NCBI RefSeq assembly: GCF_001038455.1
Contig: NZ_LDUY01000010.1
Location: 1-47,578 of the forward strand
Reading direction: 5' to 3'
DNA length: 47,578 bases
DNA from: Fructobacillus sp. EFB-N1
GTDB taxonomy: Bacteria > Bacillota > Bacilli > Lactobacillales > Lactobacillaceae
The translations under genes and the position numbers were made by a program. The notes below the pieces were generated by a model that saw nothing but the letters and a program-made list of their open reading frames with translations, was not told where the DNA came from and searched no databases. Positions 728-17,102 of this stretch are shown one piece after another (the first letter of the stretch is position 1; every line of letters starts with the position of its first letter).

Positions 728-3700
728 ATGGATACAAATATCAGGAAAAAGTATACGATTTACCAATCACGCCGCGCTTGGCTGGTTGCATCGAGCGTCT
801 TAGTTTCAGGTGGTTTGACTTTAGTGGATGGTGATCAACAGATTAGTGGTCATGCTGCTCAAGTTCAGAGGACAGAAAATGTTCGAGCTAATGACGGCCA
901 ATTGTCTGCCAGGATGAACCTCGACCAGGCTGATTTTGGTATTGATGTCGACATCGAGGATAACGACAAGAGGGAAAATGAGGCGGATGACGATTTCACT
1001 GTTGATAGTCCGCGCCCTGAGCGGCGTCATCAGAGACTTGGAACGGTTGTGGTCGTACCAGAAAATCCAAAGGACAGTGGAGATAAGCAAAAGGGACCGG
1101 ATAAAGAGGGTTCGCAGCCAAAGCAAGAGCAAGAGCAAAAGCCGGCTGACAAGGGTGGCCAGTCAAAAAATCCGGGAGAAACTGATTTAGCCAGGCAGCC
1201 ATTGCCTTCGTTGTATGAGCAAACGACTGATGCTTATGAAAAATTAGTCAAGTCCTTGCAGATCAGTGAACCGAATGTAAATGGCAGTGGGGACGCTGTG
1301 TTAGACAGTGATCAGCGCCATATCGCTAAACCTGGACAGATGATTTTTGGTGAGCCAGATAAGCCGTTGCTTGGCTTAATCGGCACTAAAAATGATTATT
1401 CCAACGTTTCTCAAATGCGCTTAATGGTTGATGAATCATTCACTCAAAAAATAATGGACCAATTTAAAGGGATTCTTGGTGAAAATCAGAAAGGAACAAA
1501 AACAAGTTACTTCCCAAGTCAAAATACTCTCGTTTTGGGTGGGGGAATGCCCTTAACAGCAGGTATTTATTCCTCGAATAATGCTCCATTAAATCCAGAA
1601 AGTTATTATAAGATGTTCCAGGCAACACTGAGTTCCGTTGCTAATGTGTTGAGCATCGGGATGGTTAATGATAAGCTAACGAACAATTATGACCAAGGTC
1701 AATACGGAATTTATCTCCGTGTCGCCGTACCGCACGGAGTTGACCCAAATGAATTTGTTAAGACGCTTAACTTAGATAGTACTCGTTTTGCAGCAGAAAT
1801 GAACTTTAATGTCACACTTGGTATTGACCGACTAATCGAAGCGGTACCAGGCTTGAGTCAAATTTTGTCGCAGGGACTGGGCCTGCCAATTAGTGGTAAT
1901 GTTGGTTCTCTTGTCGATGCCGTCTTAGGTAGGGTGGTTGATCAGTTAAACCAAAAGTATGGCACTAATTTATCTTTCAAAAATTCAGACAGTCCGTTTT
2001 ACCCAATCACGATTTATCCAAAAGCAACTAAGGTTAACAATCAGGATGACCCAGCTGCGTTGTACTTGCTGGTTCGTGGAGATGAGTTAAACCGCTATAG
2101 CGGTGTAGTGACAGAGGCTAAGATTATACTGACGAAGTTCTTTATGGAGGCGCTGTCTTGGGGCGGGAACATCAAGGGTGGTGCTTATGGCTACTTGAAC
2201 TTTGATTTAAGCCGATACCAAGGCAATATGAGTAGCCAAGAAATGCAAAAGTATTACAATGCCGATGGTCAGCATCCAGAACGTCTGGCAGATTTGAAGG
2301 TTTACGCTGATGATAGCCCATACAAGGTTTTGACTCGGTACCAGTTACCACCGCAGCAATACGGTCAGGCCTTCTTGTCTTTGAACCTGATGGATAGCAA
2401 TGATATGTTGTCGCGGTCGAGCCATGATTATGGTGAAAATGGAGATTTGGGTCGTGACGTTGTGCTTAAGAGGGCGGACCAAAAGACAGTCCACCCATTA
2501 CCAGTATCAAAAGTGCCAACGTGGCGGGCTTACATTTCGCTCTTTGACCAAGAAAAAGTCTTGAATACCAAGGAAGTGGCTGGCCATTCTGAAGAATGGG
2601 CCGAAGTTGACCACCAAGACAGAGTACTGCCTGGTCAAGATCTGGACCACCGTATTGTGAAATTAGCTAATGGGCAGAATTTTTATGATCAAGCATCGCG
2701 CTTTGACCGAGTAATTGACTACTTTGACCACCAAGTATTGCTTGATGGACAGGGTTTTCACCCAAGTCAAAATGTGCGATCCCTCCGCTTGGAACGTTCT
2801 GTTGATCCGGCTGGACAAAAGAATAGCCGTGAGGACTTTGCCATCTATAATCGGCCATTTACGGTTTACTATAATGGTGAAATGACGTTAGCAAATGGTC
2901 AGGTTGTGCCACTGCGGCCAACAAAGCTAACGGTCTTCCAGGAAAACCAGACCTTGCAATCACCATTGGATAGCCAGCGGCACTCAGCCTTTGCAACCAT
3001 CGAAAAGCAGGGGGAGTACCTCTTTAGCTTGATTAGGCATTTGCAGCCAAAATTATTGGATCAAATGATTACCAATTATGGCCAACAAATTCAAGCGGTG
3101 GTTAGTGAATCAAATCGGAAGTTGGAGGCTAGTCAAACAACGAATGGTATTCGTTTGGTGCAAAAGGAACAACTTGACCAATTGCTGGCCATTCAGAACC
3201 AGGCAACGAAAAATCACCAACTAGCACCAGCAATATTAAACGCAAATCGCGATTTAGCTTACCAACAAATCGACCGAGAGGCGCTTAGGACCAAGGTCGC
3301 GATTAATAATGCTGCGGAGCTAAGCAAGGAACAAAAGCAAACATTACTCGACCAAGTGGAGGCAACTGCTCAGACTGGGAAGAACGATGTTGGCCTGGCA
3401 ACAGAGGTAGAATCAGCTCGTCGTGTCTTAGGTGGAGTTATCGAGGGTCTGCGAACAACTTTCTTAGGTAAGGTTGAGAAGGACGAGGCCCAGGTAGCTG
3501 TGGCACAGGCTGGGCAAGAAAAGAAGCAGAAATTTGCTAAAATTGCCCATGTTGACCAAGAAAGCTTACACAAACAAGAAAAAGCAGTGGACCATGAGGT
3601 TGTCTTTTATCAGAAACGAATCAAGCAAAGCAAAACGGTGGTTGAGTTGGCCCGGGTACTAGCTGATGGCTTACATGCAATCAATGACGTGGCCAATCCT

Positions 3701-6700
3701 GATTTACAAACCAATTATCAGCCAGTTAAGCTTGATGAAATAAAGGTTGCGGTTGCTGCCTTTGAAGAACGGGGGCGGTCAACTAAAGAACGTTTTCAAA
3801 AAATTGCCCATGTAGAGCCAGCAAGCCTGATTGGGCAGGAACAATTGGTGGATGAGGCAGTCAAGCAAGGAGTAGCGGCTATTCGGATTGCCAAAACAAA
3901 GCAAGACCTCAGGCAGGCACTTGACCGAGCATTTGCGTTGGTCGAAGGCGTTGCTAAGCCACAGCTCATTAAAGAATTTCAACCAGTTTCGGCCACTGAT
4001 CGCAAACAGGCGATTGATAGAGTAATGGCTGCCGGTGAACAAAAAAAACAGCAATTCAAGCAAGTCGAACATGTTGAGCCTGATAGTCTCAACCAGCAAG
4101 AAGGCCTTGTAAATCAGTTAGTTCAAAAAGCAACTACGGTTCTTCAGCAGGCCAAAACCAACGGCGATTTAAACAGTTCGCTGGTAAAGGTGGTTAAAGA
4201 TATCAATGCGGTTGCTAATCCAACCCAGTTGATTGCTTATCAGCCAGTTAGTCAACATGATATTGATCGTGCAGTGGCGATTTTGAAGCAAATTGGGCAA
4301 GAAAAAAGTGATTCCTTCAATCAAATTATCGGTGTCGATCCGATGAGCTTGGCTAATCAGCAAGCCAAATTGAATCTGATAATTTCTAATGGTATCGAGA
4401 AATTAAATCGAGCGGAAACGAACCGTGAATTTGAGAAAAGCTTCCAAAAGACGTCCCAAGCTATTCGTGCTGTTGAAAATCCAACAATTCAAGAAATGTT
4501 GAAGGAGCCAACGGTAGATGAAAAGACCCTGTCGATTAAGTTCTTAGAACAAGCTGCCCAAGACCAACGAGACCTTTTCCAAAAGGTTGCACATGCCGAC
4601 CAACAGAGCTTGGCGCAGCAACTATCAATCTTAGAAAAAGCTCTCAAAGCCGGAACAAAAGCAATTAACCAGGCAAAGACGAAGGGAGAACTAGCCAAGG
4701 TCAGCGACCAGGCGCTAATAAAAATCAGGGCAGTAGCGAAGCCAGTAGTAGAATTTGCTTACCAAGAAGCGACCGTTCATGATGTCAATGTGGCCTACGG
4801 CAATCTTTTAGATATTCTTTCGGCCAAGCGTAAGCAGTTTGCAGCAATCTTGCACGTTGATCCAATTAGTTTGTCGAAGCAACTCCAACTTTTAGACTTG
4901 ATTAAAAAATCCACGACTATCGAACTGAATCAATCGATGATTCAAAAAGATATTCAGGTAGCTTACGACAAAGGAGTTCAGGCTATCAATTTGGTAGCAG
5001 CGCCAAAAATTTTAAGCGAATACCAACCGGTCACGGCAGAGGAACGCCACCTGGGTGAACACACCTTGCGAAATGCCGGTGAGGCAAAAAAAGCTGATTT
5101 TGCAGCTGTTAGTCATGTCGATCAAGAAAGTTTACGGGCTCAGCAATCAGTTGTTGACTCAGTCCTAGCAACCGGATTGCAGGAATTGCAAAAAGCAAAA
5201 GCTGCTGGTGCCTTTCGCAATGCTGTGGCCGACAACCTTGATCGTATTCAACGAATCGAAGCGCCTTCAATTCAAAAGGATTATCAGCCGGTAACCGATA
5301 TGGACCGTTACTTAGCACGGCAGGCAATTAACCATGCTGGTGAGGCCAAAAAGCAAGCCATTCTTGCTGTCGAACATGGCGAGAAAAAGAGCATCCAGCA
5401 GCAAGTTAAAGCGGTTCAGCAAGCGATTACACAGGCACAGCAGGGTGTTGCCCAAGCAGCAGTTCAAGGTGAATTAAAGCGGGCTGTTCAAGCTGGCTTT
5501 GATTCGATTGCTAAAATTGTCGGACCAACACTGGAAGTCGATTACCAACCAATCACCAAGGCTGATCAAAATCAGGCACTTGTGACCTTGAATCAAGCAG
5601 CAAATGATAAAAAAGCCACTTTTGCCACCATTGATCATGTTGATTCGGTTAGTCTGTCCTTACAGTCAGGTTTGATTGAGAAAACCCGAGTGAATGGACA
5701 GCAGCTGCTATTGGCTGCCAAAATCAAGAAAGACCTTCGCCAAAGTTTGGCGGATGCATTAACGCAAATTGACCAGGTGGCTGATCCAATCAAGGAAATT
5801 GGTTATCGTCAAGTCGAGGCGAACAATCAAGCAGATGCCAAGGAGCAGTTGAAGGCAGCCAGTGAGGCTCAAAAACAAAAGTTCGCGTCTTTGGTAGGTG
5901 TTGATCCCGAAAGCTTGGCCAAGCAACAGCTTTTAGTTGACCAAGCAGCAGATACTGCAAGTCAGGCTGTTGACCAGGCACAAACAGACGGGGAGCTAGT
6001 CACTGCTTGTCAACAGGGCCTGACAGCGATTCGTCAAATTGCAGCACCTGTTATTTTGGAAGAACTGAAGCCAGCAACGATAGCTGATAAGAAAGTAGCT
6101 AAGGATCGTCTTAGTCAGGTCGTTGCAAAACGTGAGGAATCTTTCCGGCAAATCAGTCATGTGGATCAGGCTAGTTTGGCTCAGCAATTACAGTTATTGA
6201 ACCAAGCTCTGGCGCAGGGACAAGAAGCCATTGACCGAACGGCAACTAAAGGGGATTTGAACCAATCTGTCACACAGGCTGAGCAGGCGGTCACTAGTAT
6301 TAGTCAGCCAAGCATATTGCCTCTTTTCCGGCTGGTCAGTCAGGATGAAAAATCAGCTGTCGATGATCTATTGGCACGGCAGGTTAATCTGAAAAAAGGT
6401 CACTTTGATGCAGTTACTCATGCTGACCCAGAGAGCCTCAGCCAACAAAAACAGGCCGTTAATCAAGCGTTGACACAGGCACACGATTTAATTGCCAATG
6501 CCAAAACAAAGCAGGATTTGAACCAGGCATTAGTAGCTGGCTTGCAGACTATTCAGGATGTTGTCGAACCGGTCGTTCAAACGCAATTCCGTTCAGTTAC
6601 CCAGGATGACCGCAACCAGGCGCTGGAAATTCTTAACCAGGCCTTTTTGAAAAAGCAAGAGCATTTTTCCGACATTAAACATGTGGATGATCAAAGTCTA

Positions 6701-9700
6701 AAGACGCAAGTTGCTGCCCTGAAGGCTGCTCGAAAAACAGCAATCGCGATTCTTTCAGCTGCTGAAAATCAAGGACAGTTGCAAACTGCCTTGCAAGCAG
6801 GACTAAGTGGCTTGAACCAAGTGACCGACCCAGAAGTACAGTTGGCTTATCGACCAGTGACTCTCGCTGATAAAATCGGCATCGAAACGATGTTGACTCA
6901 GTATGGTCATGCAAAGCAAGAGCAATTTTCTAAGATGACTCATGTTGACTTGGAGAGCCTCAAACAGCAACAGCAACAAATTGATTGGATTCTGAAACAA
7001 GCTCAGGAGGCGCTTGCTCAAGTAAAGTTGAATCAAGATTTAACTGCTGTCCAAAAGCAGGCAGTGGCCCAGATTGACTTAGTGGCTGATCCGGTTCTGA
7101 TTTTTGCTTATCAAGCAGTTACCGACCAAGAGAAAACACAAGCAGAACAACAACTTAGTACCGCCGGCCAGGCAAAGAAGGCGACTTTCTTGGTCATTAA
7201 TCATGTGGATCAGGCTAGTTTGGAAAATCAGTTGGCCCAGTTGGCATATGTTTTGCAAACCGGCCATCATTCAATTAAAAAAGCAACGGTTCACCATGAA
7301 CTTGATTCAGCAATTAAGCAAAGCTTAGCTGATGTACAGGCAGTGGCGAAGCCAAGTCTAGCGCCAGAATATCGCCAAGCGACAGCCGACCAGAAGGTAG
7401 ATGGTCAGCAGACGTTATCGGTGGTTGCTAAAGAAAAGATAGGACGTTTTGAAGCCCTTGATGGTGTCAATCAAGCAAGTCTGTTGGAACAGAAGACACT
7501 GTTGACAGGTGTTGTGAAGCACTATTTTGCTTTGATTGATCAGGCAGAAACTATTCATGATGTGCATGAGCTTGTCAATAAGGGCCTGCAAGACATTAAC
7601 CAAGTTGCACAGCCAAAACAAAATTGGCAGGATCAAGTGGTTAACAAAGAAGAAATGCAAGCTGCTATCCAGGATGTGACGTCAGCGGGTCAAAATCGAA
7701 TCCAAGACTTTGGAAAAATTACCGGAGTTGACCCTGATGAGCTGGCACAGCAACAGCAAGCCGTGAATAAAGTCGTCAAGGAAGGGCTGGTTACGATTAG
7801 TTTGGTCAAGAACCATGGCCAATTAAAGACTGCGGTTATTAAAATTAGGGAAGCCATTCAGGCGGTTCAATCACCGCAAATTCAATGGATTTTCCGACAA
7901 CCGACTGATGCGGATCGGCAAAAAGCCAAGGGGGAAGTTCAACAAAAGGCGATTGAACAAAAGGAAATTTTCGAAAAAGAACCAGGGGTTGATACTGAAT
8001 CACTAGCAAAGCAAGAAGCTGCTATTGATCAAATTGTTCAGCGGGCCTATCAAAAACTTGACGAAGCCACAGTGAATGCCAGCCTATTAACCATTGAACA
8101 AGAAGCAATAGATGCCATCGAAGCGGTTGGTCAGCCAGATATGATGCGTTCTTTCCAGCCAGTTGATATTGATGAAGCTAACCGTGCTAAGGGTGTGATT
8201 CAAACCGCAGGGGATGAACTGAAGCAACGGTTTAATGCGCTTGAAAATGTTGACCCAGTTAGCCTCCACCAACAAGTGGAACGGATTGATCAGTTAATGG
8301 CAGCTGCAAATAAACGGATTAATGATGCCAATACGAATGCCGATGTTGACCAGGTTCAAGCAGAGACTTTGGATGATTTTGCCATGGTTCCAGAACCAAG
8401 TACTTTGACGCCTAAGCGCGAAGAACGGACACAAGCACATCGGGCAATCGACTGGGCTGGTGCTAAGAAACAAGCGGAAATTGATCAGGTATCAAATCCT
8501 GATTTGTCAATCTATCAAGCGACTATTAATCAATTACGAGAAGCAATGGACCAAGCGCACCAAGCAGTTGACCAAGCAAAAACTGGTCAAGATCTAACAG
8601 AGCAATTAACAAAATTTGTGAAGGCGATTAATACTATTACGTTGCCAGAAGCGAACCAAGAACAGCCTAACCAAGAAGTTATTCAGGCGGCTCAGCAGCA
8701 AATTGACTGGGCCGGTGCTAAAAAGCAGGCAGAAATCGAGCAAGTACTAAATCCTGATGTATCAGCATATCAGGCTACTATGAATCAATTACGAGGTGCA
8801 ATGCTCCAAGCGCACCAAGCAGTTTCTCAAGCAAAGACCAGTCAAGACTTAACGAATCAATTAACAAAATTCTTGAAGACCATTAACATTCTAACAGTAC
8901 CGGTCGCTAACCAAGCTCAGCCTAGCTATGCTGAAATTCAGACAGCTAACCAACAGGTAAATCAGGCTGTCGAAAAGAAGCGAACAGCGATAGAGGCCGT
9001 AAGAAATGCTGACAAGCAGTCTTATGAAACGGCTATTGATCGTTTGCAAAAGGCTTTTGAACAGGCTCATCATGCAATTAGTCATGCAAAGACTTTGCAA
9101 ATTCTTGATGGGGATGTCAAGACAGCGTTGAAGACAATCGAAGCGATTGCTGAACCAATTGTTACTCCAAGTAATTCAGCTACTTTGCCTGTTAATTCAG
9201 CTACTAAGTCTGGTACTGATGACAAGTCAGCTGTTATTCCTACTAATTCAAATACTAAGTCTGGTGTTCAATCATCTACTAGTAATTTAGAGGTGGAAGA
9301 GAAAACAGCCGTGCCAGCAAATTCATCTACGCAATCAAATACAGATAAGGAGAAAGCAGTAACACCAGTTACTCCAGCTGTTGCACCGGGGACAGATAGG
9401 AAGGAAACGGCGGTCCCAGCTACTCCAGCTGTTGAACCGAAGGCGGATAAGAAGGAGACAGCGGTACCAGTCAATCAAGCCAAAGCATTACACATCGATG
9501 ACAAGCAAGTGGCCACATCAGTGAAAATTAGTGATAACAAGCTGGCGCAACTTGTAGTCCGGCAAGCTGAAATAACGAAGTCAAATGTAGGAGCACAAGA
9601 GTTATTAACCCATTTGTCGGGAAATAGTTCCGCGACAGCAAAGGATAGTCAAATTCAGCAAAAACAGGAAACAACGATTAATCAAAATGGCACTGGTCAG

Positions 9701-9874
9701 CACCATCAAAATGGTGACAATTCAAATCAAGCCAATTCAATTAGTGCTCTGCCAAAGACGGATTATGGTCATACAAAGAATCAAACATCAGTGAAAACGA
9801 CTCTCTTGACAGCTTGGTTAGTGGTTCTGACAGGACTGGGTTTGATTAAGAAAAAGTATGATGATATTAATTGA
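728..9874 (+). CDS. Giant LPxTG-type repeat surface adhesin (3048 aa)
   Basis: A cell-wall-anchored surface protein, probably an adhesin; no ligand can be named. The N-terminus (about residues 1-45) is basic with a KYTIYQSRRAW motif and a hydrophobic run, resembling the KxYKxGKxW signal peptides of accessory-Sec adhesins. Residues about 110-150 are a Lys/Gln/Pro-rich linker. Residues about 160-900 form a non-repetitive region I cannot assign to a family; it is the likely binding head. From about residue 920 there are 19 helical repeats of exactly 87 residues, each with a HVDxxSLxxQ-like core and a VAxPxxxxxYQPV-like end, then three related repeats of 85 residues to about residue 2815. They resemble three-helix-bundle spacer repeats of the DUF1542 type. 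A Thr/Ser/Pro/Lys-rich wall-spanning region follows. The end carries LPKTD (residues 3008-3012; usually LPxTG), a hydrophobic segment and KKK. The frame is unbroken. Export and anchoring are inferred; no sortase or SecA2 gene is in the window. Confidence 0.9.
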   Translation: MDTNIRKKYTIYQSRRAWLVASSVLVSGGLTLVDGDQQISGHAAQVQRTENVRANDGQLSARMNLDQADFGIDVDIEDNDKRENEADDDFTVDSPRPERRHQRLGTVVVVPENPKDSGDKQKGPDKEGSQPKQEQEQKPADKGGQSKNPGETDLARQPLPSLYEQTTDAYEKLVKSLQISEPNVNGSGDAVLDSDQRHIAKPGQMIFGEPDKPLLGLIGTKNDYSNVSQMRLMVDESFTQKIMDQFKGILGENQKGTKTSYFPSQNTLVLGGGMPLTAGIYSSNNAPLNPESYYKMFQATLSSVANVLSIGMVNDKLTNNYDQGQYGIYLRVAVPHGVDPNEFVKTLNLDSTRFAAEMNFNVTLGIDRLIEAVPGLSQILSQGLGLPISGNVGSLVDAVLGRVVDQLNQKYGTNLSFKNSDSPFYPITIYPKATKVNNQDDPAALYLLVRGDELNRYSGVVTEAKIILTKFFMEALSWGGNIKGGAYGYLNFDLSRYQGNMSSQEMQKYYNADGQHPERLADLKVYADDSPYKVLTRYQLPPQQYGQAFLSLNLMDSNDMLSRSSHDYGENGDLGRDVVLKRADQKTVHPLPVSKVPTWRAYISLFDQEKVLNTKEVAGHSEEWAEVDHQDRVLPGQDLDHRIVKLANGQNFYDQASRFDRVIDYFDHQVLLDGQGFHPSQNVRSLRLERSVDPAGQKNSREDFAIYNRPFTVYYNGEMTLANGQVVPLRPTKLTVFQENQTLQSPLDSQRHSAFATIEKQGEYLFSLIRHLQPKLLDQMITNYGQQIQAVVSESNRKLEASQTTNGIRLVQKEQLDQLLAIQNQATKNHQLAPAILNANRDLAYQQIDREALRTKVAINNAAELSKEQKQTLLDQVEATAQTGKNDVGLATEVESARRVLGGVIEGLRTTFLGKVEKDEAQVAVAQAGQEKKQKFAKIAHVDQESLHKQEKAVDHEVVFYQKRIKQSKTVVELARVLADGLHAINDVANPDLQTNYQPVKLDEIKVAVAAFEERGRSTKERFQKIAHVEPASLIGQEQLVDEAVKQGVAAIRIAKTKQDLRQALDRAFALVEGVAKPQLIKEFQPVSATDRKQAIDRVMAAGEQKKQQFKQVEHVEPDSLNQQEGLVNQLVQKATTVLQQAKTNGDLNSSLVKVVKDINAVANPTQLIAYQPVSQHDIDRAVAILKQIGQEKSDSFNQIIGVDPMSLANQQAKLNLIISNGIEKLNRAETNREFEKSFQKTSQAIRAVENPTIQEMLKEPTVDEKTLSIKFLEQAAQDQRDLFQKVAHADQQSLAQQLSILEKALKAGTKAINQAKTKGELAKVSDQALIKIRAVAKPVVEFAYQEATVHDVNVAYGNLLDILSAKRKQFAAILHVDPISLSKQLQLLDLIKKSTTIELNQSMIQKDIQVAYDKGVQAINLVAAPKILSEYQPVTAEERHLGEHTLRNAGEAKKADFAAVSHVDQESLRAQQSVVDSVLATGLQELQKAKAAGAFRNAVADNLDRIQRIEAPSIQKDYQPVTDMDRYLARQAINHAGEAKKQAILAVEHGEKKSIQQQVKAVQQAITQAQQGVAQAAVQGELKRAVQAGFDSIAKIVGPTLEVDYQPITKADQNQALVTLNQAANDKKATFATIDHVDSVSLSLQSGLIEKTRVNGQQLLLAAKIKKDLRQSLADALTQIDQVADPIKEIGYRQVEANNQADAKEQLKAASEAQKQKFASLVGVDPESLAKQQLLVDQAADTASQAVDQAQTDGELVTACQQGLTAIRQIAAPVILEELKPATIADKKVAKDRLSQVVAKREESFRQISHVDQASLAQQLQLLNQALAQGQEAIDRTATKGDLNQSVTQAEQAVTSISQPSILPLFRLVSQDEKSAVDDLLARQVNLKKGHFDAVTHADPESLSQQKQAVNQALTQAHDLIANAKTKQDLNQALVAGLQTIQDVVEPVVQTQFRSVTQDDRNQALEILNQAFLKKQEHFSDIKHVDDQSLKTQVAALKAARKTAIAILSAAENQGQLQTALQAGLSGLNQVTDPEVQLAYRPVTLADKIGIETMLTQYGHAKQEQFSKMTHVDLESLKQQQQQIDWILKQAQEALAQVKLNQDLTAVQKQAVAQIDLVADPVLIFAYQAVTDQEKTQAEQQLSTAGQAKKATFLVINHVDQASLENQLAQLAYVLQTGHHSIKKATVHHELDSAIKQSLADVQAVAKPSLAPEYRQATADQKVDGQQTLSVVAKEKIGRFEALDGVNQASLLEQKTLLTGVVKHYFALIDQAETIHDVHELVNKGLQDINQVAQPKQNWQDQVVNKEEMQAAIQDVTSAGQNRIQDFGKITGVDPDELAQQQQAVNKVVKEGLVTISLVKNHGQLKTAVIKIREAIQAVQSPQIQWIFRQPTDADRQKAKGEVQQKAIEQKEIFEKEPGVDTESLAKQEAAIDQIVQRAYQKLDEATVNASLLTIEQEAIDAIEAVGQPDMMRSFQPVDIDEANRAKGVIQTAGDELKQRFNALENVDPVSLHQQVERIDQLMAAANKRINDANTNADVDQVQAETLDDFAMVPEPSTLTPKREERTQAHRAIDWAGAKKQAEIDQVSNPDLSIYQATINQLREAMDQAHQAVDQAKTGQDLTEQLTKFVKAINTITLPEANQEQPNQEVIQAAQQQIDWAGAKKQAEIEQVLNPDVSAYQATMNQLRGAMLQAHQAVSQAKTSQDLTNQLTKFLKTINILTVPVANQAQPSYAEIQTANQQVNQAVEKKRTAIEAVRNADKQSYETAIDRLQKAFEQAHHAISHAKTLQILDGDVKTALKTIEAIAEPIVTPSNSATLPVNSATKSGTDDKSAVIPTNSNTKSGVQSSTSNLEVEEKTAVPANSSTQSNTDKEKAVTPVTPAVAPGTDRKETAVPATPAVEPKADKKETAVPVNQAKALHIDDKQVATSVKISDNKLAQLVVRQAEITKSNVGAQELLTHLSGNSSATAKDSQIQQKQETTINQNGTGQHHQNGDNSNQANSISALPKTDYGHTKNQTSVKTTLLTAWLVVLTGLGLIKKKYDDIN
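3500..9170 (+). repeat. Tandem repeat block in the adhesin: 19 x 261 bp plus 3 x 255 bp
   Basis: The conserved Phe codon of successive units falls at 3533, 3794, 4055, 4316 and so on to 8231. That is 18 intervals of exactly 261 bp without a single net insertion or deletion. A few units replace the Phe or the His. Three further units spaced 255 bp apart start near 8460, 8715 and 8970 and share the KKQAEIDQV-like core. Units are strongly diverged at nucleotide level, so the array is old or under diversifying pressure, not recently amplified. Confidence 0.85.
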
Positions 9875-11636: not shown

Positions 11637-12563
11637 ATGGCTGAAACAACACTGGTCACAATGACAATTGACCAAGAACAGGGGCGGTTAGATGCCGTTC
11701 TAGGACAGGCAAAATTACCTTATTCGCGGTCAACACTGGCTAACTGGATTAAAGAAGGATTAGTGTTAGTCAATGACCAAGCAGTGAAACGGTCTTATAT
11801 GGTCAAAAAGGGTGATATTGTTAGTATTAATTCACCAGCAGTGAAAGAAACGGCACTCGAGGCTGAAAATATTCCCCTTGATGTTGTGTATGAAGATGAT
11901 GATTTATTGGTTGTGAATAAACCGCAGGGGATGGTTGTCCATCCTGCGCCGGGCCATTCAGGTGGCACATTAGTCAACGCTTTGCTTTATCATGCTCCTC
12001 TATCAACGATTAATGGCGAATTCCGTCCTGGAATTGTCCATCGGATTGACCGGGATACTTCCGGTTTGTTGATGGTGGCCAAAAATGACCAAGCCCATCA
12101 TGCTTTAGCAGCCGAATTAAAGGCTCATAAAACGCAAAGAATTTACTATGCATTGGTAAAGGGCAACTTTGAGGAAAATGAGGGGACCATCGATGCACCA
12201 ATCGGTCGTCATCCTAAGGACCGCAAGAAACAGGCGGTGGCTGAGGACGGCCGTGAGGCCGTGACTCATTTCAAGGTGGTTGAACGTTTTGCCGGTTATA
12301 CATTGTTAGAATTAGCATTAGAAACCGGTCGGACGCATCAAATTCGGGTGCATTTGGCTTATATCGGTCACCCGGTCGTTGGTGATAGCGTTTATGGTCA
12401 TCAGGACAAGATTTTTAATATCAAATTGCCAGGTCAGCTTCTTCACGCAAAAACGCTTGTGCTGACCCAACCAAAGACACAAGAAGAACTTCGCTTTGAT
12501 TCAGCATTACCACCTCTGTTTGAACAGGTATTGCAGGAATTACGTGAAAACCAGGGTTCATAA
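11637..12563 (+). CDS. rluD: RluD-type 23S rRNA pseudouridine synthase
   Basis: Converts uridines of 23S rRNA to pseudouridine; the RluD type normally acts on helix 69. The 308-residue protein has an N-terminal S4 RNA-binding domain (about residues 14-75), the DLLVVNKPQGMVVHPA strand of the RluA family, and the HRIDRDTSGLL signature with catalytic Asp at residue 138. The GRTHQIRVHLAYIGHPVVGD motif is complete. The ATG abuts the upstream stop codon. It is the second gene of the ebsA-like/rluD/pyrR group, an arrangement common in lactic acid bacteria. The target uridines cannot be read from the sequence; the family call is firm. Confidence 0.92.
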   Translation: MAETTLVTMTIDQEQGRLDAVLGQAKLPYSRSTLANWIKEGLVLVNDQAVKRSYMVKKGDIVSINSPAVKETALEAENIPLDVVYEDDDLLVVNKPQGMVVHPAPGHSGGTLVNALLYHAPLSTINGEFRPGIVHRIDRDTSGLLMVAKNDQAHHALAAELKAHKTQRIYYALVKGNFEENEGTIDAPIGRHPKDRKKQAVAEDGREAVTHFKVVERFAGYTLLELALETGRTHQIRVHLAYIGHPVVGDSVYGHQDKIFNIKLPGQLLHAKTLVLTQPKTQEELRFDSALPPLFEQVLQELRENQGS

Positions 12564-12614: not shown

Positions 12615-13142
12615 ATGGCAAATAAAGTAGTGTTAGACCAAGATTCGATGCAACGAGCATTGACTCGAATCACTTATGAAATTTTGGAACGGAATAAGGG
12701 TGGCCAAAACCTCATTTTGGTAGGAATTAAGACCCGCGGTGAGTATTTGGCCCACCGGATTGCTGACCGTTTGGAACAACTCGAACAGGTTCAAATTCCA
12801 GTGATGGCGATTGATGTGACGAACTATCGTGACGACCATCTGGACAGCGGTGATGATTTGGGCTTGGACCCAGCTGAAAAGCTCAACATTGCCAACCAAA
12901 ACATTGTCTTGGTTGATGACGTGTTGTTTACCGGTCGGACGACCCGGGCCGCCTTGGATGCTTTGATTCAAATTGGTCGGCCTCAGGCGATTGCTTTGGC
13001 CGTCTTGGTTGATCGTGGTCACCGTGAATTACCAATTCGAGCAGATTTTGTTGGAAAGAACATTCCAACGGCTCAAAATGAAAAAATTAAGGTCAAAGTC
13101 AAGGAATTTGACGGGGAAGACTCGGTTGAAATTGTCCACTAG
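12615..13142 (+). CDS. pyrR: PyrR: pyrimidine operon attenuator / uracil phosphoribosyltransferase
   Basis: PyrR binds pyr-operon leader RNA in response to UMP and promotes termination; it usually has weak uracil phosphoribosyltransferase activity. The 175-residue length is normal. The PRPP-binding signature ([15 protein letters not shown], from residue 98, with the two Asp at 101-102) is intact, as are the early [15 protein letters not shown] region and the [16 protein letters not shown] segment used in RNA binding. GAAAGGA lies 7 bases before the ATG. It is followed after 88 bases by the carA-like gene, so its classical targets sit next to it, but those are degenerate here. No canonical PyrR-binding loop could be identified nearby. 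Confidence 0.93.
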
Positions 13143-13230: not shown

Positions 13231-14310
13231 ATGGAACGGCACCTAATTTTAGAGGATGGCACGGTTTTTTCTGGCCAGGGATTTGGCGCACCAGCGACAA
13301 CCTTTGGCGAGATTATTTTTGACACCGCTACCTCCGGCTATCAAGAAACAATTACAAATCCAATTTATGATGGGCAGATGATTGTCTTTGCGATGCCTGT
13401 TGTTGGCGCTGATGGCATCCATGCGGAGGCCTATGAGTCGACTACACCAAAAATTCGTGGTGTGGTTGTTCACGATTTAGCGGAAGTTTCCACTAACCGG
13501 CAGCGGCGGATGAACCTGGACCGCTTTTTGCAGCATCATAATATTCCGGGTCTATACGAGGTGGATACGCGCAAGTTAATTCGCCACCTTCGTGAAACGG
13601 GTCCTCAAAAGGCGACAATCGTTGATGTTGTCGACGATCACGCAGTTGACCAATTGGTGGCCACCGTGTTGACGAATAAACAGGTTCAAAACACGGCCAC
13701 TCCGAAGGCCTATGCTAACCCTGGTCATGGTTTTCATATTATCGTGATTGATTTTGGTTTAAAGCACGGGATTCTGCGAGTCCTTGGTGACTATGATGCC
13801 AACGTGACGGTTCTGCCGTATACAACAACGGTGGATGAGGTGTTGACCCTGGACCCCGATGGCATTATTTTATCGACTGGTCCCGGTAACCCTGAGGACT
13901 TGCCCGATTCGGTTTTGACCTTGATTCGGGTGTTGCAGACGAAGATGCCATTGTTAGGCCTTGGCCTTGGGCACGAGCTATTGGCTTTGGCCAATGGGGC
14001 TGAAATTCAAGCCCTGCCGGCTGAGTACCATGGTATGAACCATCCAATCCAAGAAATCATCTCGCAACAGCTTTTTTATGCCCGGCAGGGGCGTGGCTAT
14101 GTGATTGATGAGGATTCACTAGATGGCAAAAAACTCTTTGTAACCCACCGCGACTTGGTTGATGGCTCAATCCAAGGAATTCGTTTGCGAGACAACCCAG
14201 CCTTTTCGGTACAATTCTTTCCGGATGGGGCCCCCGGTCCTCTTGAAGCAAACGGAATCTTTGCGGACTTTTTTGAAACGGTAGCAGATTATGTACAAAA
14301 AAATAGTTGA
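13231..14310 (+). CDS. CarA-like protein without glutaminase triad (pseudo-carbamoyl-phosphate synthase small subunit)
   Basis: Homologous over its full length to the small subunit of carbamoyl-phosphate synthase, which hydrolyses glutamine and feeds ammonia to CarB. The N-terminal domain (LILEDGTVFSGQGFG, SGYQETITNP, VDTRKLIRHLRE) is well conserved, and the class I amidotransferase fold follows (GIILSTGPGNPEDL). The active site is gone. The usual GICLGHQ is GLGLGHE, so the nucleophilic Cys is Gly (residue 245, codon 13963-13965). The usual GHPEA is FFPDG, so the His is Phe (330) and the Glu is Asp (332). No stop or frameshift is present, so it is probably made as a protein. The upstream ATG at 13216 is in frame, but MERHLILEDG matches the usual family start. 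It overlaps the next gene by 20 bases. The homology is firm; loss of activity is inferred. Confidence 0.85.
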   Translation: MERHLILEDGTVFSGQGFGAPATTFGEIIFDTATSGYQETITNPIYDGQMIVFAMPVVGADGIHAEAYESTTPKIRGVVVHDLAEVSTNRQRRMNLDRFLQHHNIPGLYEVDTRKLIRHLRETGPQKATIVDVVDDHAVDQLVATVLTNKQVQNTATPKAYANPGHGFHIIVIDFGLKHGILRVLGDYDANVTVLPYTTTVDEVLTLDPDGIILSTGPGNPEDLPDSVLTLIRVLQTKMPLLGLGLGHELLALANGAEIQALPAEYHGMNHPIQEIISQQLFYARQGRGYVIDEDSLDGKKLFVTHRDLVDGSIQGIRLRDNPAFSVQFFPDGAPGPLEANGIFADFFETVADYVQKNS

Positions 14311-16825
14311 AACGCCGGTTAAAAAAGTACTCTTTATCGGTGGTGGCGAAACAGATTTTGGCCTCCAGGGCGAAAGTGATGCCGCAATTTACCAAGTTTT
14401 GCCAATTTTAAATGGTCTTGGTTATACAGTGACAGTTTTGGATGATAATCCCTATTCGTTGGCCCTGGAATCACCGGCAGCCACCGGATTTTTGCGGACT
14501 CTGACTGTTCAAAACGTCAAAAAAATTATTAAGTCTCAAAAAGTTGACGGCGTGATGCCACTTTTTGGTGGCGTGCGGGCGTTGCGTTTATGGGATCAGG
14601 TTATTTCGGAGTGGCGTGAAGCGGATGGCGTTTTGCCACAAACACTTGGTTTATCGGCTAGTGAGCTGCACGAGGTTAATGATGGGACTTTACTTTTTGA
14701 CCGAATTGAGGAGATTGGCCTAAGTGTCACCGCCTCGGCCGTGGTGCACAACCAAGAAGAAGCGAACGAAATGTTGCGCGATTTGGAATTGCCTTTGGTC
14801 ATTCGGGCTCACAACCCAGTTCAGGGAACGACGAGGCAAATTGTTGATCGCTTGGATGATTTTGACCATGTTGTTAATCGGGTCATGGGCCAATCATTAA
14901 CCAACGAGGTGTTGATTGCCAAGGCGATTAATGGCTTGAAGGAAGTCTCTGTTTTGGTTGTTCGTGACCGTGATGGCAACTGCCTGCAGGTCGGAGCTTC
15001 TGAAGATATGGATCCAATTGGCATCCATACGGCTGACTCGCTGTCAGTGGCGCCGGTTTTGACGGTTTCTGATCAAATTTTGCAGCAGATGCGGATTCAG
15101 GCCTTTGCGATTGCTGATTTGATTGGCCTCCGTGGTGTTTTACACGTTCAATTTGCCTTTGATGAAAAGACAGGTGAGATTTACGTGATTAAGGTTTCAC
15201 CATATCTTGATCATCTAGCTAATCGAATGGCTGTGATGACCGGGTATCCAGTAATGTTGGTGGCTGCGCAGTTAGCAATGGGTAAGAAAATTACCGAAGT
15301 TTACTTGCCAAATGCCTTTCATGAAAAAACGGCGATTATGGAACCGGTGATGGACCACATTGTCGTCAAGTTGCCCGTTTTCTCTTTCGGCGACTTGGAA
15401 GCAATGGGTATTAAAGTTAATCGCCAGTTGAATTCCGTGCAAAAATCAGTTGGTTCCGCTTTGGGATTTGGTCGAACGTTTGTGGAAGCCATGGAAAAGG
15501 CTATTCGTTCAGCCCACTTCAATAACCGGTCGTTCTCACCCAAGTATATGGCTGATGTTTCAGATGACGAGCTGATTCAACAGTTGATTCATCCGCAAGA
15601 TAACCGAGTTTTGCTCTTAATTGAGGCCCTGCGCCGTGGTTATGAAGTCGATGAGCTGGCCGAGTTAACCAATATCGATGAATTTTACTTTTATCAACTG
15701 AATCGGCTAATTGAAATTGAGCAGTCGGTTGACCGAGATAACATTGATGCAGATGCACTGCGACAGGCGAAGAAGTTTGGTCTTTCGGATGGTCTGATTG
15801 CCCGCTTTTGGCAAACTAATTTTCAAGCAATTCGTACCTTAGCTCGGCAGAATAATATCCAACCGACTTATAAGGCCTTAGAACCGTCGGCTGGTGAATT
15901 TCCCGAGCATGCTCGGCAATTCTTTGCAACCTTTGAAGAAGAAAATGAGTCGGAACCAATTTGTGCCCAGTCCGTTTTGATTATTGGTCCAGGGGCCTTT
16001 CGCATGGGGGACGGGGCTTCAGCTGGTTATATGACGAGCGTAACACTGTCCGAACTGCATCGACTCGATTATCAAACGATTATTATGAACAACAATGCGG
16101 CGGATCCGACCTTATTGCCACATCTGTCAGATAAACAGTATTTGGAGCCCCTTGAAGTTTCGGATGTGATGTCGGTGGTCGATAAAGAACAACCACATGC
16201 TATTTTGGTTCCGGGCAACCGTAAGAAATTGATTGAAGCGTTGCAGGAAATGGGTCAACACGTGATTGTTTTCCCAAAAGAAAAGCACCATCCGAGCGGA
16301 CCCGAAAAACATCAATCAGAGTTTAGCTTGAACTTCTTCTATGATGGCGAAGAGAAGCACCCACTGGTCGTCACCCAGCACCGCCCTGGTGAAGTTCGTA
16401 TTCTCGACCAAGCAATCGACCCAGCTCTTTTGGATGATTTGACGTTGGCCAGTCCAGGCCTGTATCAAATTATCTGGCGTGTCGATTTGGACGCCTGGGT
16501 CAGTAAGATTCCTTTGCCTGATTTACGCGTGGATACTTGGCTGCGGCCAATGCCATATGGACACATTGCTTACCTAACTAAGGTTTTGGACATTCCGTTG
16601 GGCCGGATGATTGTGCGAGCTTGGGTTGGTCAGCTAAATGAGGCTGACCGCCAATACCTAGCCGCTATTAAAGGTCAGCACGAAACGGCTAAATTAGCGA
16701 TGGTAGCGAAAAATACAGACTTTGATTTACACTTGCAGCCTGATAAAGCCATTGATTTGACTCGCTTTGAAATGGGGGCCAAGGTGGTACCGTACGAAAG
16801 CGAGAATAGCGATGGGCAAGAGTAA
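14291..16825 (+). CDS. CarB-like protein with degenerate ATP-grasp sites and no allosteric domain (pseudo-large subunit)
   Basis: Homologous to the large subunit of carbamoyl-phosphate synthase but only 844 residues instead of about 1060-1070. The first half aligns well (GIHTADSLSVAP, HVQFAF, MTGYPVMLVAAQLAMG). The metal/ATP motif VIEMNPR reads VIKVSPY, so the acidic, Asn and Arg ligands are Lys301, Ser303 and Tyr305. The Gly-rich ATP loop and the RRR segment are also lost. The middle oligomerisation region (NIDEFYFYQLNRLIEIE) is recognisable. The second synthetase half starts near residue 565 (VLIIGPGAFRMGDGAS). It is shortened, and its ATP-grasp core has no recognisable ligand residues. The C-terminal regulatory (MGS) domain is absent. 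The frame is intact. It is co-translated with the CarA-like partner and overlaps the next small gene by 14 bases. A structural or regulatory role is more likely than catalysis, but that is inference. Confidence 0.83.
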   Translation: MYKKIVETPVKKVLFIGGGETDFGLQGESDAAIYQVLPILNGLGYTVTVLDDNPYSLALESPAATGFLRTLTVQNVKKIIKSQKVDGVMPLFGGVRALRLWDQVISEWREADGVLPQTLGLSASELHEVNDGTLLFDRIEEIGLSVTASAVVHNQEEANEMLRDLELPLVIRAHNPVQGTTRQIVDRLDDFDHVVNRVMGQSLTNEVLIAKAINGLKEVSVLVVRDRDGNCLQVGASEDMDPIGIHTADSLSVAPVLTVSDQILQQMRIQAFAIADLIGLRGVLHVQFAFDEKTGEIYVIKVSPYLDHLANRMAVMTGYPVMLVAAQLAMGKKITEVYLPNAFHEKTAIMEPVMDHIVVKLPVFSFGDLEAMGIKVNRQLNSVQKSVGSALGFGRTFVEAMEKAIRSAHFNNRSFSPKYMADVSDDELIQQLIHPQDNRVLLLIEALRRGYEVDELAELTNIDEFYFYQLNRLIEIEQSVDRDNIDADALRQAKKFGLSDGLIARFWQTNFQAIRTLARQNNIQPTYKALEPSAGEFPEHARQFFATFEEENESEPICAQSVLIIGPGAFRMGDGASAGYMTSVTLSELHRLDYQTIIMNNNAADPTLLPHLSDKQYLEPLEVSDVMSVVDKEQPHAILVPGNRKKLIEALQEMGQHVIVFPKEKHHPSGPEKHQSEFSLNFFYDGEEKHPLVVTQHRPGEVRILDQAIDPALLDDLTLASPGLYQIIWRVDLDAWVSKIPLPDLRVDTWLRPMPYGHIAYLTKVLDIPLGRMIVRAWVGQLNEADRQYLAAIKGQHETAKLAMVAKNTDFDLHLQPDKAIDLTRFEMGAKVVPYESENSDGQE

Positions 16826-17102
16826 TCAATATCCAACTGAAATTTTATATGGGGTAATGGTCAGTGAAGGGAAGTCCGGCGACTATAAGGTCAAGGACGG
16901 CCAAAAGCTGCACCCCTGGCGAATTGGTAAACACACCAAGGGCAAGGTTGTTGGTCCTGGACAAATCTTTTTGACCGAACAAAATCAGAAGGTCGTGTTA
17001 ATCAAAACGGCACCGTTACCCTTTAAGAACCGCCACCACTATCAGCCGATGGGGCGGTTTACTAGTGAGACGATGGTTGTTCCAGCTGATTTTCAAGAAT
17101 AA
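16812..17102 (+). CDS. Uncharacterised 96-residue protein at the end of the pseudo-car operon
   Basis: I do not recognise a family. The protein is basic, has no membrane segment, and looks like a small beta-rich domain: Gly/Lys-rich turns in GDYKVKDGQKLHPWRIG and KGKVVGPGQIFL, then KVVLIKTAPLPFKNRHHY. The ATG at 16812 overlaps the carB-like stop by 14 bases in another frame, which suggests translational coupling; a longer frame from 16767 would overlap more and is less likely. It is followed by a strong terminator, so it is the last gene of the ebsA/rluD/pyrR/car-like group. Its position suggests it may work with the pseudo-synthase pair, but nothing in its sequence shows how. Confidence 0.6.
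   Translation: MGKSNQYPTEILYGVMVSEGKSGDYKVKDGQKLHPWRIGKHTKGKVVGPGQIFLTEQNQKVVLIKTAPLPFKNRHHYQPMGRFTSETMVVPADFQE

Follow-up and report, generated by a model that had tools for sequence, protein, structure and literature searches.

Why would a bacterium with a working carbamoyl-phosphate synthase (CPS) keep, intact, a second CarA/CarB-like pair from which the active sites have gone? The question is raised by a 47,578-nucleotide stretch of Fructobacillus sp. EFB-N1 (NZ_LDUY01000010.1; contig C10 of genome G000), called the window throughout. Following pyrR, and on one strand with rluD and pyrR, are an altered CarA-like gene (13231-14310, +; ATG at 13231 in a frame open from 13216; 359 residues) and an altered CarB-like gene (14291-16825, +; 844 residues), referred to here as CarA* and CarB*; G, L, g and f are handles for genomes, loci, genera and families. 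Both frames are open and overlap by 20 bases, and the open reading frame (ORF) list confirms in this, and in the position after pyrR, an original prediction made from the DNA letters alone. The canonical carAB that the prediction proposed to look for is present on contig C22 of the same genome, in a working pyrB-pyrC-carA-carB-pyrD order with a Cys-bearing CarA of 361 residues and a CarB of 1056 residues. Judged from sequence, CarA*-CarB* appears to be a conserved pseudo-CPS. It is almost certainly devoid of CPS activity, and its role is most likely one of sensing or regulation.

An alignment of the pair to E. coli CarAB, to the working CarAB of its own genome and to 44 other loci gives 45 pair rows from 43 genomes (L016 and L083 share one genome, as do L019 and L076). 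Residue roles, and the lists of glutamine-pocket and first-ATP-site columns, are those of E. coli CarAB. In the window, Gly245 of CarA* (codon 13963-13965, +) replaces the catalytic Cys269 (E. coli CarA numbering) and Phe330 (14218-14220, +) replaces the catalytic His353. The Cys is Gly in 45/45 aligned rows and in 54/54 rows (52 genomes) across all reads; the His is lost in all 45 rows (Phe 35, Ser 6, Leu 3, Asn 1). Ser47 is retained in none of the rows, Gln273 is Glu in 41 and Asn311 is kept in two. The Cys and His losses named in the original prediction therefore stand. Its third catalytic loss, Glu to Asp, does not: Asp332 stands at Glu355, and Asp is likewise present in 10/10 working Lactobacillaceae CarA aligned. 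Only the Cys-to-Gly change and, more weakly, position 208 (Asp in 23/27) separate 27 pseudo from 19 working CarA rows at the script's thresholds. The columns of the former glutamine pocket are better conserved than the rest of CarA* (0.89 vs 0.67), with 93 of 20,000 random column sets scoring as high.

In CarB*, Pfam finds the pre-ATP-grasp domain, the first ATP-grasp domain (14702-15298, +), the oligomerisation domain CPSase_L_D3 (15581-15811, +) and a second pre-ATP-grasp domain (residues 560-640; 15968-16210, +), and finds neither a second ATP-grasp nor an MGS (allosteric) domain in the window protein. The first ATP site is rewritten. Glu299, Asn301 and Arg303 are replaced by Lys301, Ser303 and Tyr305 (K-V-S-P-Y for E-M-N-P-R; 15191-15205, +), Arg129 by Gly132, and the Gly-rich loop is gone. 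Among the 45 rows, Glu299 is Lys in 41 and Arg in four, Arg303 is Tyr in 36, Phe in four and another residue in five, Asn301 is kept in five and Arg129 in one. Glu215, His243, Gln285 and Arg169 are retained in the window; across the rows the first three are mostly kept (44/45, 42/45 and 37/45), and position 169 is Arg in 24 and Lys in 21. Conservation of the first-site columns exceeds that of the rest of CarB* (0.67 vs 0.53; 366 of 20,000 random sets as high), and conservation is higher in the oligomerisation domain (0.64) than in the ATP-grasp half (0.54). In the second half, the positions of R675, R715, H754 and L756 are gapped in 45/45 rows. The tail (16208-16822, +; profile A3, 30 sequences) aligns to working CarB residues 750-865 (hhalign E 1.4e-4, probability 52%) and is best read as a shrunken ATP-grasp remnant without MGS, weakly conserved at a mean top-residue frequency of 0.39. 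All 45 rows, from 43 genomes, show both the Cys-to-Gly and the Glu299-to-Lys/Arg change, and chance is therefore excluded.

The prediction's statement that all catalytic sites are lost is thus borne out for the glutaminase, the first-site triad and the second ATP-grasp core, and goes slightly too far for Glu215, His243, Gln285 and Arg169. Its account of a missing VIEMNPR motif and Gly-rich loop, and of a shrunken second half without ligands or allosteric domain, agrees with the alignment and the Pfam result. Catalytic residues shifted and still present, which would have spoken against it, were looked for in the alignments and not found.

Both genes are held by selection. Ratios of non-synonymous to synonymous rates (dN/dS) were computed by NG86 on stop-to-stop frames, which include a few codons ahead of each start. 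Between the window and G073, the closest comparison, CarA* has a dN/dS of 0.014 and CarB* one of 0.039; working CarA has 0.034, working CarB 0.029 and PyrR 0.024. Where a ratio could be computed for comparisons involving a genome that has no working CarA, it is 0.015-0.021 (CarA*) and 0.019-0.075 (CarB*), rough values with dS above 1.2; over all computable comparisons both genes lie at 0.003-0.075, several with saturated dS. Against Leuconostoc G202, identity is 81% for CarA* and 58% for working CarA. Broken frames in close strains, the other outcome that would have counted against the prediction, were not seen: eight pair matches contain an internal stop, in seven of them only 1-4 codons short of the match end, and the eighth, from the 350-contig assembly G165, may be broken. 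The pair is under strong purifying selection and not in decay. Loss of catalytic residues from frames held by such selection is what marks a pseudoenzyme, and the two are combined here.

Intact orthologues occur across the family, as the prediction had asked to be checked. Of 301 family genomes, 162 have a match to profile A3 at E 1e-20 or better. All come from 20 genera represented by 163 genomes, and the single miss among these (G174) is 76% complete. In the other 20 genera, represented by 138 genomes, no genome reaches this threshold, and weaker matches there fit working CarB. The conclusion that half of the genera are without the pair was rejected, since A3 misses diverged forms. Eight of ten loci read in A3-negative genera are diverged pairs (g3, g4, g8, g21, g35), L167 in g4 is a ninth, and Gly replaces Cys in 9/9. 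The two remaining loci (L109 and L112, g37) have PyrR directly after working carAB and no pseudo pair within the stretch read. One diverged type (L105-L108 and L116, from g8, g3 and g35) has a CarB* of 802-807 residues and Gln, Glu or Asp at CarA His353, with CarB Glu299 and Arg303 kept in L106, L108 and L116; its role may be different from that of the derived type. Outside the family, in a 246-genome sample of the order, Cys is present in every CarA motif read (12 short and eight longer loci, 16 genomes).

Where the pair came from can be followed at the same genomic site. Eight stretches carry a full pyr operon at the lspA-rluD-pyrR site, from three other families (f3: L159, L160, L161, L168; f9: L162; f2: L169) and the Lactobacillaceae genus g11 (L164, L165). 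The order is rluD-pyrR, then pyrP, pyrB, pyrC, a Cys-bearing carA, a full-length carB and further genes; pyrD is named in 7/8, lspA lies ahead in 7/8, and rqcH, whole or in part, lies beyond in 4/8. Most pair loci retain only pyrR-carA*-carB*. The g21 locus L110 reads lspA-rluD-pyrR-permease-carA*-carB*-rqcH, the permease being a Xan_ur_permease. Its CarB has 1056 residues with the MGS domain, first-site residues as in working enzymes and an altered second site, and in its CarA the Cys is already Gly. The L110 pair is a candidate living intermediate, and a pair of this type might still be a bicarbonate-dependent ATPase. The CarA* linker motif HA.DQL.. was tried as a CarA*-specific mark and rejected: Cys-bearing CarA at the ancestral site carries it too, and it is absent from the relocated working CarA of Lactobacillaceae.

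The CarA trees place the pseudo rows on one side of a branch with support of 29 (60 rows) or 86 (45 rows), and approximately unbiased tests on their sister group (p 0.318 and 0.289) do not decide. In the CarB tree, which has very long branches, the pseudo clade stands apart from ancestral-site CarB, with L110 basal in it (clade 91, rest 95). The CarB tree favours a single origin of the Cys-to-Gly change, at supports of 94 and 91 and with the same very long branches. Synteny, the linker motif and the g21 intermediate are the grounds for reading the pair as the probable relic of an ancestral pyr operon, flanked by lspA-rluD on one side and rqcH on the other. The other pyr genes are missing from that site, and carAB has persisted without the glutaminase nucleophile or second ATP site; the derived type has, in addition, a rewritten first ATP site and no allosteric domain.

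In some genomes the pair outlives the pathway from which it came. Only one CarB match is found in 30 of the 162 A3-positive genomes, which suggests that working CarB has been lost there. Working CarA is missing from 12 of 48 genomes searched, and all 12 keep the pair; PyrB is missing as well in nine of the ten of these that were searched for it, G028 being the one with PyrB. In place of a working pyr operon, G041 (same genus as the window) has a deletion scar (L102, 2228-2608, -) in which PyrB residues 6-41 run straight into PyrD residues 222-311, and pyrR and the pair are intact (L072). With the pair kept and working CarA absent in a quarter of the genomes searched (12/48), a role dependent on the pyrimidine enzymes becomes less likely.

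The explanation proposed here, to which a probability of about 0.4 is given as a whole, is that the pair is a non-catalytic ligand-binding complex reporting to a partner, most likely PyrR. CarA* and CarB* would still form a complex of the CarA-CarB type. The old pockets, refitted and not eroded, would bind a small ligand without turnover, and the complex would signal the state of that ligand to its partner, for which the PyrR encoded beside it is the likeliest candidate. Such a complex would be no synthase; it would sense or regulate pyrimidine or carbamoyl/amino-nitrogen status, including the use of external pyrimidines. Of the parts, ligand binding is somewhat favoured; action together with PyrR is put forward tentatively. 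pyrR adjoins the pair in 40/44 loci and PyrR is present in 46/46 pair genomes searched. In the window's genome, the PyrR of the locus is the only one found, the sole other match being 25% identical.

Several observations weigh against this explanation. In L051-L054 (g2, g5) pyrR is not beside the pair, and PyrR is common also in genomes without a detected pair, so that co-occurrence of the two counts as weak evidence. The PyrR RNA element (RF00515) was found in 0/13 genomes of the window's genus, under strict filters and with part of the candidates scored, and in 35/35 genomes of other genera under the same filters; a permissive search found it in L100 and L101, but not in L015 or L097, both working pyr stretches, nor in the F. 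tropaeoli pair locus L018. Ordinary PyrR attenuation is therefore unlikely in this genus. Between the window and Leuconostoc, CarB* is less conserved than working CarB (57% vs 67%), and structure prediction on five sequences gave unusable models of low confidence (mean pLDDT, the predicted local distance difference test, 51 and 32). Fructobacillus PyrR is itself 98% identical among close relatives although the RNA element is not found. A Fructobacillus-specific PyrR change as the reason for the missing element was rejected, the RITYEI Tyr being present in 41/41 PyrR aligned.

What the pair is kept for, then, depends neither on the pathway nor, in this genus, on the usual PyrR target. Of the original interpretation, retention of a conserved pseudoenzyme pair for a purpose other than CPS is upheld by the intact orthologues, the very low dN/dS and the presence of a working carAB elsewhere in the genome, and a role through pyrimidine enzymes or, in this genus, through the usual RNA element is weakened.

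Among the other explanations, the pair could serve assembly or structure, either for a different enzyme (as inactive PyrC' does for Pseudomonas aspartate transcarbamoylase) or in some process unrelated to pyrimidines, with neither ligand sensing nor a link to PyrR. This would suit the persistence of the pair in genomes that have lost working carA and pyrB or in which no PyrR RNA element is found, as well as the better conservation of the oligomerisation domain; the conservation of the former glutamine pocket above the rest of CarA* and the long co-residence with pyrR speak against it, and it is considered unlikely. Somewhat less probable again is re-purposing as a new enzyme, its refitted pockets catalysing a different reaction. 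The fixed substitutions (Lys or Arg at Glu299 in 45/45, Tyr or Phe at Arg303 in 40/45, Glu at Gln273 in 41/45) and the mostly retained Glu215, His243 and Gln285 could be taken in that sense, but key groups are missing from both classical reaction centres, the Gly-rich loop is unconserved, the second ATP-grasp core is gone and no candidate reaction suggests itself.

Residual CPS activity, for example fed by ammonia and working despite the substitutions, is very improbable. The ammonia-dependent CPS1 also lacks the Cys, and in the g21 relative all first-site residues checked are intact; both ATP sites are, however, altered or deleted in the derived type including the window, the second site is altered in g21 too, and working carAB is present elsewhere in the genome. 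Plain decay of an operon remnant on its way to being lost is the least credible. The poorly conserved CarB* tail and the internal stop in the fragmented assembly G165 would be expected of it, while dN/dS of 0.003-0.075, the tail profile in 162 of 163 sampled genomes of 20 genera, and an intact pair in G041 after loss of the working pyr operon are hard to reconcile with it.

Comparison with known systems places the pair more exactly. With E. coli CarAB (PDB 1bxr, 1c30) it has in common the CarA N-domain and GATase and the CarB pre-ATP-grasp, first ATP-grasp, oligomerisation and second pre-ATP-grasp domains; it differs in the absence of the glutaminase Cys and His, the second ATP-grasp core and MGS, in its rewritten first ATP site and in length (CarB 1073 residues, CarB* 844). 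With the pyrR-pyrP-pyrB-pyrC-carA-carB operon of g11 and other Lactobacillales families it shares the site, the order of the retained genes and the CarA linker motif, whereas that operon holds the other pyr genes and the CarA Cys, and the window only pyrR and the altered carAB. Inactive relatives of pyrimidine enzymes include PyrC' of Pseudomonas, which aspartate transcarbamoylase needs there, and the dihydroorotase-like part of yeast Ura2. Like the pair, these are dead relatives kept by selection; unlike it, they sit inside working pyrimidine complexes, while the pair is also found where working carA and pyrB are not. Human CPS1 lacks the glutaminase nucleophile, as the pair does, keeps both ATP sites and makes carbamoyl phosphate. 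It is ammonia-dependent (PDB 5dot, 6uel) and a sequence relative of the pair, in which the ATP sites are altered or deleted.

A possible functional lead comes from L. plantarum, where PyrR1 responds to pyrimidines and PyrR2 to inorganic carbon (PMC3582564); the passage on PyrR2 in that paper does not mention a CPS-like pair. G258, a genome apparently of the L. plantarum kind, has one PyrR at the head of the pyr operon and another, 63.6% identical, in the pair locus; the latter is presumably PyrR2. If so, the adjacent CPS-derived pair is an obvious candidate for the sensor, and the g21 form with its intact first site is a plausible intermediate toward it. The first ATP site of CarB is the bicarbonate-activating one. 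The derived pairs, including that of G258 (L070), are without the Glu-Asn-Arg triad, which counts against a bicarbonate sensor; any bicarbonate site there would therefore be built differently. The full conjecture is accordingly a long shot: that the pair does the sensing in a two-part regulator whose other part is PyrR and, in the L. plantarum kind, is the sensor behind the PyrR2 response, a former bicarbonate-binding enzyme now gauging bicarbonate or carbamoyl phosphate, with g21 as its living intermediate. An initial assignment of lp_ numbers to the L. plantarum locus was rejected, lp_2371 being pyrP and lp_2369 and lp_2370 ATP synthase genes (PMC10609543, PMC3014895, PMC8953754). No description of the pair was recognised in a literature search largely outside subscription journals.

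The ORF at 11637-12563 (+) is presumably the pseudouridine synthase gene rluD, a name assumed from synteny and general features of the family; it forms the upstream flank of the ancestral pyr site, adjoins the pair in the loci read wherever the stretch reached far enough, and is the same flank in families with the full operon. pyrR (12615-13142, +) scores 252.6 bits with NCBIfam PRK05205.1-4 against a cut-off of 218. CarA* is recognised by Pfam CPSase_sm_chain and GATase and passes the NF009475 and TIGR01368 cut-offs of NCBIfam, and CarB* falls under those of TIGR01369 and NF003671. Of four named relatives found, F. tropaeoli F214-1 is the nearest, at 98% over CarB*. A small ORF (16767-17102, +) overlaps the end of CarB* and has a Pfam DUF7671 match (97.3 bits for 16845-17099); an ORF of similar size lies in a similar place after CarB* in Fructobacillus and Leuconostoc-like loci. 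Elsewhere in the window (728-9874, +) is a protein of 3048 residues with many alike repeats and an LPKTDYG-like end, resembling a wall-anchored surface protein.

For genome annotation, the passing of NCBI naming cut-offs by CarA* means that pyrimidine auxotrophs may be assigned, in pathway models, an enzyme that is probably missing from them. For the family, half or more of the sampled Lactobacillaceae genera keep a two-subunit enzyme whose active sites appear to be gone, with candidate living intermediates spanning the way from the full to the gutted operon and, between the window and Leuconostoc, a CarA* that changes more slowly than the working CarA of the same genome. The pair makes the question of the PyrR2 response to inorganic carbon directly testable, and offers a clear case in which to study the function of a pseudoenzyme complex.

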